DNA of 34,708 nucleotides from Candidatus Zixiibacteriota bacterium (lineage in GTDB: Bacteria; Zixibacteria; MSB-5A5; UM-FILTER-46-8), in the NCBI GenBank assembly GCA_026983835.1, contig JALSTH010000047.1:1-34708 (forward strand), in the 5' to 3' direction. A program made the translations under genes and the position numbers. Shown here in pieces: positions 6,399-23,706 of this stretch. The notes beneath the pieces are model-generated. The model was not told where the DNA came from. It did not search any database and saw only the letters and a list, made by a program, of their open reading frames with translations. Every line of letters starts with the position of its first letter. Position 1 is the first letter of the stretch.

Positions 6399-6420
6399 TG
6401 GTTAAAAACAAGGAAACCAT

Positions 6421-6506
6421 CTTTCCCTACGCTGGCATTATCCAGATCAGGTTCCAAGGGTGTATTCTCAGGCTCGCAACCTGTAAGAGGATGCGAACCA
6501 CCCCAT
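6421..6506 (-). ncRNA. TPP (thiamin pyrophosphate) riboswitch, THI element
   Basis: The minus strand carries the THI-box core: GGGGTGG at the 5' side, CTGAGA (6471-6466), ACACCC closing the first arm, then ACCTGATCTGGATAATGCC and AGCGTAGGGAA. The variable P3 arm forms an 8-bp helix (GGTTCGCA with TGCGAGCC). These are the conserved bases that bind the pyrimidine and pyrophosphate ends of TPP. By established knowledge TPP binding turns expression off. The aptamer starts about 10 bases after the predicted transcription start and controls the TonB receptor and SSS symporter genes. Confidence 0.95.
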
Positions 6507-6521
6507 TTTATCTTATAGGAA

Positions 6522-12842: not shown

Positions 12843-12866
12843 TTGAATGATAAAGCGCTCATTCAA
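12843..12866. repeat. Inverted repeat at the 3' end of the bshB1-like gene
   Basis: TTGAATGA and TCATTCAA (8 perfect pairs, 8-base spacer) overlap the stop codon of the deacetylase gene. No T run follows, so it is a possible 3'-end stabilising hairpin rather than a classical terminator. Confidence 0.4.
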
Positions 12867-13557
12867 TTAAGCAGAATAAATTCTCAATCTTCATAGGCTC
12901 GCCTATGGAGAATCCCTGCCCGTATTTAACCCCGATATGATTGCCATAACCTCTCACCATAGACTCCAAAAACCACAAATAATCGTATTGCTTCGCCGGG
13001 TTTTGGAATTGTGATTTGTGTGCTTTGACCGCTTCTGTCCATATATCGAACTCATCCGTAATATCCACCACAAATGTGGGAGGGACTTCGGTTGGCAAGA
13101 GATAATGAAATATTGCGCTTACTTGATATGGCTCGCCTTGAATCGGCAATTTTTTCAGCATAGCATAATTTGCGGCATTTACCACAATTTTGCCAGCAGC
13201 CAAATGGTCCGGATGGCTTTGCTTTTTCCCGTGTCCCCCCCTCGGATATGGAGCAAGGATTACTCTCGGCTTGAATTTACGGATTAATTCGGCAATTTTT
13301 AATCTATATTTATAATTATCCTCAAGCCTGCAATCACCAAAATCCAAATCCACCACCAAATCAACACCCAAAATCTTAGCCGCTCTTACAGCTTCTTTCT
13401 TACGGAGTTCCGGAAAGCCTCCTGTTCCCATCTCTCCTTGAGTTAAATAAATAATGCCGGTCGAGTATCCCAATTTCTTCATCTTTACCAGAACGCCTCC
13501 GGTCCCGACTTCAGCATCATCAGGGTGTGCGCCGATAGAGATTATGTCAACTTCCAT
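12859..13557 (-). CDS. bshB1: PIG-L/LmbE-family deacetylase, BshB1-like (bacillithiol biosynthesis)
   Basis: A 232-residue zinc-dependent N-acetylglucosamine deacetylase. The zinc/catalytic motif AHPDD is at 10-14 and the second metal motif HPDH at 115-118. The LTQGEMGTGG stretch and the C-terminal YGNHIGVKYGQGFSIGEP are characteristic of the BshB1 branch, which removes the acetyl group from GlcNAc-malate to give GlcN-malate, the second step to bacillithiol. It is cytosolic, with no signal peptide. ATG at 13557 is preceded by GGAG. Small differences from the usual BshB1 (an insertion GGHGKKQ before HPDH) leave room for a related sugar deacetylase. No bshA or bshC is in the window. Confidence 0.8.
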   Translation of the reverse strand: MEVDIISIGAHPDDAEVGTGGVLVKMKKLGYSTGIIYLTQGEMGTGGFPELRKKEAVRAAKILGVDLVVDLDFGDCRLEDNYKYRLKIAELIRKFKPRVILAPYPRGGHGKKQSHPDHLAAGKIVVNAANYAMLKKLPIQGEPYQVSAIFHYLLPTEVPPTFVVDITDEFDIWTEAVKAHKSQFQNPAKQYDYLWFLESMVRGYGNHIGVKYGQGFSIGEPMKIENLFCLIE

Positions 13558-18490: not shown

Positions 18491-18970
18491 ATGAGGAGAA
18501 TTCTAACCATCCTAACCTTAATGACACTTTTGGCATTTACCTCAATCCCTATTTACGCCCAAACAACAAACAATGTCACCAACCATAAGACACCATTGAA
18601 AACTATTACAATAAACATTGAAGGGATGTCCTGTTTGGGATGTGCGAATAAAATCAGCAATTCGCTGAAATCCTTGGATGGGGTCAAGGATTGTAAGGTA
18701 AATATCGATGAGTCCAAAGCCACCGTCAAGATTGAAGATGGCAAAGTAACCAATGAACAATTGGTAAAAGCAGTAGTCAAAGCAGGCTATACCGCCCAAA
18801 TCGGCAAAATCCGTGCCGAAGGAGAACATAAAAGCAACGGAAACGGTTGCCCCGACAAAGGCGAAAAGATAAAGGGAAAACCAAACAAAACCGCCGTCAA
18901 ATCCTGTACGGATGGAAAGATTTGTAATCCCGAAACCGGGAATTGTAAAAAGAAAGCCGATAAAAAATAA
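18491..18970 (+). CDS. Exported heavy-metal-associated (HMA) domain protein, MerP-like
   Basis: A 159-residue protein with a signal peptide (cleavage likely after IYA at residue 23) and one HMA fold at about 37-105. The metal-binding motif is GMSCLGCANKI (Cys48, Cys51), as in MerP and CopZ-type metallochaperones that bind Hg, Cu or similar ions. The C-terminal 50 residues are Lys/Gly-rich and add four more cysteines (GCPDKG, SCTDGKIC, GNCKKK), an unusual extension that could bind metal or form disulfides. GGAGGAG lies directly upstream of ATG 18491. Neighbours are unrelated; no metal ATPase or regulator is in the window, so the metal is unknown. Confidence 0.82.
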   Translation: MRRILTILTLMTLLAFTSIPIYAQTTNNVTNHKTPLKTITINIEGMSCLGCANKISNSLKSLDGVKDCKVNIDESKATVKIEDGKVTNEQLVKAVVKAGYTAQIGKIRAEGEHKSNGNGCPDKGEKIKGKPNKTAVKSCTDGKICNPETGNCKKKADKK

Positions 18971-22762: not shown

Positions 22763-22790
22763 ATGGGACGAATAAACTAATCCGTCCCAT
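22763..22790. terminator. Hairpin between convergent kinase-like and peroxiredoxin genes
   Basis: ATGGGACG / CGTCCCAT form 8 perfect pairs around a 12-base loop, placed between two convergent genes. There is no good T run on either side, so termination is only a guess. Confidence 0.4.
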
Positions 22791-22835: not shown

Positions 22836-23537
22836 TTAAAATGCATTTTCCGGCTTCCAAACCTTCCACACTTTCCCAACCAAATCGGGTCCCGGCTTCA
22901 AGGTTGGCCTGCCGGGCTGCCAACCGGAAGGCGTAGCTTCTCCTGTTTTACGGACATATTGGAAAGCCTTCAACTGCCTGATTAATTCCGTTACATTTCT
23001 ACCCACAGGCGGAGTTAACACCTCCATTGCCTGAACAATGCCGTCGGGATCAATTATAAATCTTCCCCGAATATCAACTCCGGCATCTTCATCGTAAACC
23101 CCATATATAGTCCCGATTTTTCCACCCGCATCCGAAAGCATTGGAAATGGGATACCACCCTTTACCATTTTGGACAACTCTTCTTCCTGCCATATTAAGT
23201 GCGTAAACTCGCTGTTCGTACTTAAAGAGAGAACCTCAACATCCAGAGATTTTAGTTCATCATATTTCGACGCAACTGCGCTCAATTCGGTCGGTCAGAC
23301 AAAAGTAAAATCCCCGGGATAAAAGCATAGGACCAACCATTTCCCCCGAAAATCAGAGAGCTTGATCTTTTTGAAGCCTCCTTGATAAAAAGCGGTTGCC
23401 TCGAAATCCGGCGCTTCTTTTCCTACCCGTATAGACATCTTTACCTCCTTTGTTAAATTACCAGCCAAAGATAAGCTTCCGCCTAAACCGATAAAAGCGA
23501 TTACTGCAATTAGGCTTAAAATCCTTTTTACCAACAA
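22836..23537 (-). CDS. Selenocysteine-containing peroxiredoxin (PrxU-like), in-frame UGA at the active site
   Basis: A single AhpC/TSA-fold protein of 233 residues read through UGA at 23297-23295. The sequence around it is FYPGDFTFV-(UGA)[14 protein letters not shown]; in peroxiredoxins this position is the peroxidatic Cys (FTFVCPTE). Both sides stay in one frame and are fully family-like ([37 protein letters not shown]), so the UGA is best read as selenocysteine (residue 81). A SECIS-like hairpin follows. The role is peroxide reduction. The usual resolving-Cys site, VCPAGW in AhpC, is ATPSGW here; the only Cys is Cys71. Two starts look good: TTG 23537 with AGGAGGT, giving a signal-peptide-like N-terminus, and ATG 23438 with AAGGAGGT, giving a cytosolic form. 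No selA, selB, selC or selD is in the window. A point mutation or sequencing error is the alternative. Confidence 0.85.
23266..23285 (-). promoter_or_regulatory. Candidate bacterial SECIS hairpin
   Basis: On the minus strand, GCGC-AGTT-GCGT forms a 4-bp stem with loop AGUU, flanked by a 2x2 internal loop and a UU/AA pair. The loop begins 17 bases after the UGA. A G in the first two loop positions and this distance fit the loose rules known for bacterial SECIS elements, recognised by SelB. Alternative pairings of the same region exist. Confidence 0.6.
23436..23450 (-). promoter_or_regulatory. Internal ribosome binding site and second start in the peroxiredoxin gene
   Basis: AAGGAGGT (23450-23443) stands four bases before ATG 23438, inside the longer frame. 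Translation from here skips the 33-residue signal-like leader and gives [12 protein letters not shown], a normal peroxiredoxin N-terminus. Confidence 0.6.
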
Positions 23538-23706
23538 TCTCGCACCTCCTAAGGAAGTAATCCCTTGATTGATAAATCAATAAAAAGCAAATCTCGTAAT
23601 TTTTAATTAGGATAACAAAGCAAATTGTATAAGTCAATGAAATACTTATTATCGCAAGTATATTTAATATCCAAAAATTTTATATTTGATTTATCGGGGT
23701 TTTACA

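Follow-up and report, generated by a model that had tools for sequence, protein, structure and literature searches.

We conclude with high confidence that the window, by which we mean the whole 34,708-nucleotide stretch of DNA analysed, carries prxU, a gene for a selenocysteine peroxiredoxin of the Prx1/AhpC class whose in-frame UGA would be read by means of SelB and a SECIS element, and whose catalytic cycle most likely follows a 1-Sec mode of resolution. The UGA at the catalytic position is real, and was rightly interpreted in the original prediction, but it is no surprise; its interest lies rather in the absence of a resolving Cys and in the possibility of two starts.

The prxU reading frame and its internal UGA

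22836..23438, reverse strand: prxU core frame, ATG 23438 to stop codon; 200 residues with an AhpC/TSA domain and a 1-cysPrx_C arm (Pfam, NF040737, AF2/PDB fold)
23295..23297, reverse strand: in-frame UGA at the peroxidatic position, predicted to be read as selenocysteine; this codon is TGA in 38 other loci and encodes Cys in distant homologues

The frame that runs from 23537 to 22836 on the reverse strand contains a single stop before its end, the TGA at 23297-23295, which is preceded by FTFV and followed by PTE, that is, it stands at the peroxidatic position of an AhpC-type peroxiredoxin. It specifies residue 81 counted from TTG 23537, or residue 48 counted from ATG 23438. Codon usage is coding-like in the same frame on both sides of the UGA (about +0.27 bits per codon each), and the other two frames downstream of it hold 8-11 stops. 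The flanks and the codon statistics thus confirm what had been claimed from the sequence at the outset, namely that one UGA interrupts an otherwise intact frame at the catalytic Cys of FTFVCPTE and that the coding signal is intact, in the same frame, on either side. The start originally given, 23537, stands as one of two likely starts, but ATG 23438 is a candidate too.

Against the PrxU equivalog of NCBIfam, NF040737, the protein scores 381.6 bits (cut-off 270), while its score against the AhpC equivalog TIGR03137, 198.8 bits, does not reach the cut-off of 272; the Pfam matches are to PF00578 (130.6 bits) and PF10417 (37 bits). With the NF040737 family, whose NCBIfam title is 'thioredoxin-dependent peroxiredoxin', it shares a Sec in the peroxidatic place and the TxxU motif (here T-F-V-U). 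Profile positions 29-232 of 233 are matched, compared with 2-232 in most relatives; positions 1-28, which correspond to the Cys-bearing tail of most relatives, are missing here and also in G126, G036 and G009, and the cut-off is passed regardless. A confident AF2 model (mean pLDDT 88.5) matches the crystal structures of human Prx2-4 and Salmonella AhpC (TM about 0.83-0.87). With these typical 2-Cys enzymes the window protein has the fold, the motif and the C-terminal arm in common, but it has Sec in place of the peroxidatic Cys and Thr in place of the resolving Cys.

PrxU takes its name from the Eubacterium acidaminophilum protein (Sohling et al. 2001, as cited in PMC13188914 and PMC8533274), and Sec-peroxiredoxins with a TXXU motif, the first of which is attributed to that study (PMC13188914), have long been known; Sargasso Sea data yielded 43 such genes (PMC1088965). 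The surveyed proteins (TXXU; PMC1088965, PMC1794560, PMC13188914) share with ours the AhpC/TSA fold family and an in-frame UGA with a bacterial SECIS after it; they were filed under COG1225 (Sargasso Sea) or PF00578, and their likeness to the Prx1/AhpC-type window protein is at the level of fold family and motif. Given this long record of TXXU proteins, the predicted PrxU is an addition to an already described selenoprotein family.

Conservation of the UGA

Searching 58 genomes (the window's own and its relatives) recovered 17 further homologues at 57-79% identity with one internal TGA each, and a codon alignment places that TGA at the identical position in all 17. The same codon is TGA in four loci from MAGs titled Aggregatilineales, Calditrichaceae, Ignavibacterium and 'bacterium'. 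With a phylum-wide search included and the window excluded, TGA occupies the peroxidatic codon in a total of 38 loci (57-79% identity), from separate assemblies, and in none of them does TAA or TAG stand at the site; such a recurrence goes far beyond chance and can take the place of read mapping as a check on the base. TGC or TGT is present in three homologues at 57-62% identity and in all those below about 50%, and the TGA aligns with the peroxidatic Cys of every Cys homologue. Two of the three closest Cys-type homologues (L049, L050) belong to small assemblies in which no SelB match passes the threshold applied; the assembly of the third (L048) has SelB. In the part that follows the UGA, pN/pS is 0.15-0.22 and synonymous sites are close to saturated, and in comparisons with near relatives purifying selection is as strong after the UGA as before it.

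The PrxU family scores above its cut-off in 52 of the 133 genomes of the phylum (about 40%), with one TGA in each match, the position of which was verified codon by codon for the fetched loci only. Alignment to the AhpC and PrxU families, proposed originally as a check, therefore puts the TGA at the position of the peroxidatic Cys in a protein that passes the PrxU model, and relatives, in which another stop codon was to have counted against selenocysteine, show TGA and never another stop. The assignment to the PrxU type is thus supported, but the expectation that an FCB-type genome would extend the known set needs toning down: the gene hardly does so, since UGA-containing PrxU is common in the phylum and occurs already in MAGs titled Calditrichaceae and Ignavibacterium. 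The 'FCB-type' label had as its sole basis genes of the window, such as one for a PorV/PorQ-family protein.

The SECIS element and the selenocysteine machinery

23266..23285, reverse strand: SECIS hairpin; family stem of eight pairs and loop AGUU, with two mismatched pairs in the window copy (family covariation and covariance model)

Counting from the UGA, alignment columns 13-20 pair with columns 25-32, and the loop starts 17 nt after the UGA. Across 21 aligned sequences the apical loop is AGUU in 12 and GGUC in 9, the latter being the apical loop of the E. coli fdhF SECIS. Pairing is observed in 87.5% of cells, compared with 76% in shuffles, and two-sided changes are seen in 20 cells, compared with 7 in shuffles (0/500); slid controls fail. 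Pair 18-27, which joins two third-codon positions, is kept in 21/21 sequences as GC, AU, CG or GU, and is broken in the Cys homologues L048-L050.

The copy in the window is weaker than the family. Mismatches occur at two of the eight family pairs, and the 48-mer at its minimum energy adopts a different hairpin (-8.5 kcal/mol, versus about -4.2 kcal/mol for the SECIS; z -1.7), although the apical stem and loop, GCGC-AGUU-GCGU, are kept. A covariance model trained without the window finds its hairpin at 46.4 bits, a score to which conserved coding sequence contributes much. Scanning the window with Rfam at gathering thresholds gave no SECIS family. On the alignment, then, a bacterial SECIS with covariation just after the UGA can be taken as established for the family, and for the window through the family rather than by its own copy alone. 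Of the AGUU hairpin first noticed 17 bases after the UGA, the position and loop hold up, but the stem in this copy is weak and has a competitor. Because of the two stem mismatches and the more stable competing fold, read-through in this host may be less efficient than in its relatives.

The window's own genome has selA, selB, selD and a tRNA-Sec with anticodon UCA (selC), the complete set that the original prediction had proposed to look for, and the absence of selB or selC, which it had named as an argument against selenocysteine, is not what we find. The genes selD, selA and selB adjoin on one contig (G000:C65:47992-52259), and selD itself carries a UGA, in the motif SCSGU. SelB is nearly universal among the relatives examined, and its co-occurrence with prxU is for that reason not discriminating here. 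In the mechanism that we propose, SelB with Sec-tRNA would read the prxU UGA as selenocysteine, guided by the hairpin 17 nt downstream within the coding region.

Other explanations for the UGA

The assembly from which the window is taken is a draft of 134 contigs, and one base parts TGA from TGC or TGT, which might suggest a sequencing or assembly error at an ordinary Cys codon, or a pseudogene. We regard this as very improbable, and as ruled out by the homologues, given the TGA that 38 other loci share at this codon, the selection that persists downstream and the covariation of the hairpin. In-frame read-through in both prxU and selD could also be taken to mean that UGA has been reassigned to a normal amino acid. 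Such a reassignment has a close to negligible chance of being correct: UGA is an ordinary stop for the window's long ORFs, which are full length under table 11 (verified for window ORFs only), the read-through occurs only where known selenoprotein families (PrxU and SelD) have their Sec, and the genome has all of the Sec machinery, tRNA-Sec(UCA) included. Thus homologues and machinery lead us to reject it.

The weakened hairpin raises another explanation, in which the gene is real but its read-through in this host is weak or lost, so that mostly a short fragment is made from a copy on its way out. The two mismatched pairs and the competing fold fit this account. However, purifying selection downstream of the UGA is undiminished against near relatives, SelD retains its UGA intact, and the apical stem and loop persist in the window copy, and we consider this explanation very unlikely. 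The reading that we retain is a prxU translated through its UGA into a selenocysteine peroxiredoxin.

Loss of the resolving Cys

22932..22934, reverse strand: Thr codon (in EATPSGW) at the site of the C-terminal resolving Cys of typical 2-Cys peroxiredoxins (alignment)

Where the typical 2-Cys family (TIGR03137) has its resolving Cys, in EVCPAGW, the window protein reads EATPSGW. Among 38 scorable Sec copies, the window included, 20 have Cys at this position, 15 have Thr and 3 have Met; judged by this alignment, the C-terminal resolving Cys has been lost in about half of the clade. The window protein contains a single Cys, placed ten residues ahead of the Sec (Cys-38 in short-form numbering).

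We infer that Sec is incorporated in the cell and that the product has peroxidase activity. The selenolate would attack H2O2 or an organic hydroperoxide, giving a selenenic acid whose resolution would fall to an external thiol, either thioredoxin or one of low molecular weight such as bacillithiol. Such a 1-Sec cycle is the simplest account and the most likely one, because the resolving Cys is replaced by Thr and the only Cys lies ten residues upstream of the Sec, an argument that is drawn solely from the absence of Cys residues. The window also encodes a homologue of the bacillithiol deacetylase BshB1 (12859-13557, reverse strand), which hints that the host makes bacillithiol, and bacillithiol is thus a candidate reductant besides thioredoxin.

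Two internal candidates for a resolving Cys were considered. A Cys in the N-terminal tail of most relatives is found together with the C-terminal Cys in 18 copies and without it in 16 (counting L015, with its GTG start), while the window copy and L018 have neither; since the tail Cys thus occurs both with and without the C-terminal Cys, there is no clean trade-off, and we reject it as a simple substitute. Nor do we favour the Cys ten residues before the Sec, because it is frequent in ordinary Cys-type AhpC too.

Two possible starts

23439..23537, reverse strand: upstream in-frame segment, signal-peptide-like, which tentatively replaces the Cys-bearing tail; from TTG 23537 or 23534
23444..23450, reverse strand: internal Shine-Dalgarno AAGGAGG before ATG 23438 (-12.9 kcal/mol with the anti-SD)

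Ahead of the core and in frame with it, 34 of 39 Sec copies encode a tail of about 45 residues, which has a CxxP motif close to its beginning (M...GCAKPTG or M...SCVEPAxG) and is covered by the NCBIfam profile. This conserved tail, together with a second, internal start and its Shine-Dalgarno, is seen in loci L010-L017, L019-L024, L044, L046, L047 and L126-L152. The core-start Shine-Dalgarno reaches -6.9 kcal/mol or better in all 32 tailed genes scored, compared with 28% of Met codons inside the core that reach -6 kcal/mol. Its mean is -9.8, versus -6.1 on synonymous recoding of the same peptide (0/400; z -8.3, a value that overstates independence because the sequences are related). This pattern suggests two isoforms from two starts in the relatives' prxU, though the internal site might also be what is left of an older, short gene that later gained a tail. 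In L014 the core start reads ATG TAG GCA CAA GTG, with a TAG right after the core ATG that ends the tail frame; its core would use another start such as GTG, or the base is an error.

The window copy, which is without the Cys-bearing tail, differs from NF040737 in having a hydrophobic signal-peptide-like segment in that place, as well as in its missing C-terminal resolving Cys. The segment has a hydropathy maximum of 2.4 over 17 residues, no stop and a weak coding score (+0.12 bits per codon); its TTG start has a Shine-Dalgarno of -11.5 kcal/mol, and it is followed by the ATG with AAAGGAGG. In this single genome, prxU may yield exported and cytosolic forms, export being a possibility that is tempered by the weak coding signal and by the analysis covering one genome of the genus. 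Our tentative proposal, which we think less likely to be right than wrong, is that two selenoperoxiredoxins arise from one prxU with two in-frame starts: in most of the clade its long form would bear the conserved-Cys tail, and here a signal peptide would replace that tail, so that the long form would be exported and the short form cytosolic, both without a resolving Cys. A partial literature search found no report of a two-start or exported bacterial Sec-peroxiredoxin.

Genomic context

23609..23637, reverse strand: promoter-like site TTGACT-17-TATCCT upstream of prxU (consensus match only)
22763..22790, reverse strand: terminator-like hairpin downstream of prxU (consensus match only)

Flanked by these promoter-like and terminator-like sites of its own, prxU appears to be monocistronic in the window. 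Just 5' of the promoter-like -35 hexamer we noticed by eye an inverted repeat, ATACTT-GCGATAAT-AAGTAT (23642-23661, reverse strand), a possible operator of a peroxide-responsive regulator. In one relative (G031) prxU lies among FUR, AhpC, desulfoferrodoxin, ferritin, rubrerythrin and flavodiiron genes, a neighbourhood that fits oxygen and peroxide defence.

Elsewhere in the window are a TPP riboswitch (6406-6515, reverse strand; Rfam RF00059, 58.5 bits) and a gene for a heavy-metal-associated domain protein (18491-18970, forward strand) with a weak match to the UxxU metal-binding selenoprotein family (54.5 bits, cut-off 95). Looking for a Sec formate dehydrogenase by way of the molybdopterin-dinucleotide-binding domain turned up one match, with no UGA in the matched stretch.

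Implications

With this gene, a phylum already rich in PrxU enzymes gains a further, well-supported one, and its clade can serve for comparative study of how Sec peroxiredoxins lose their resolving Cys. Should the two-start architecture hold, current annotation covers one of the two proteins made from prxU.
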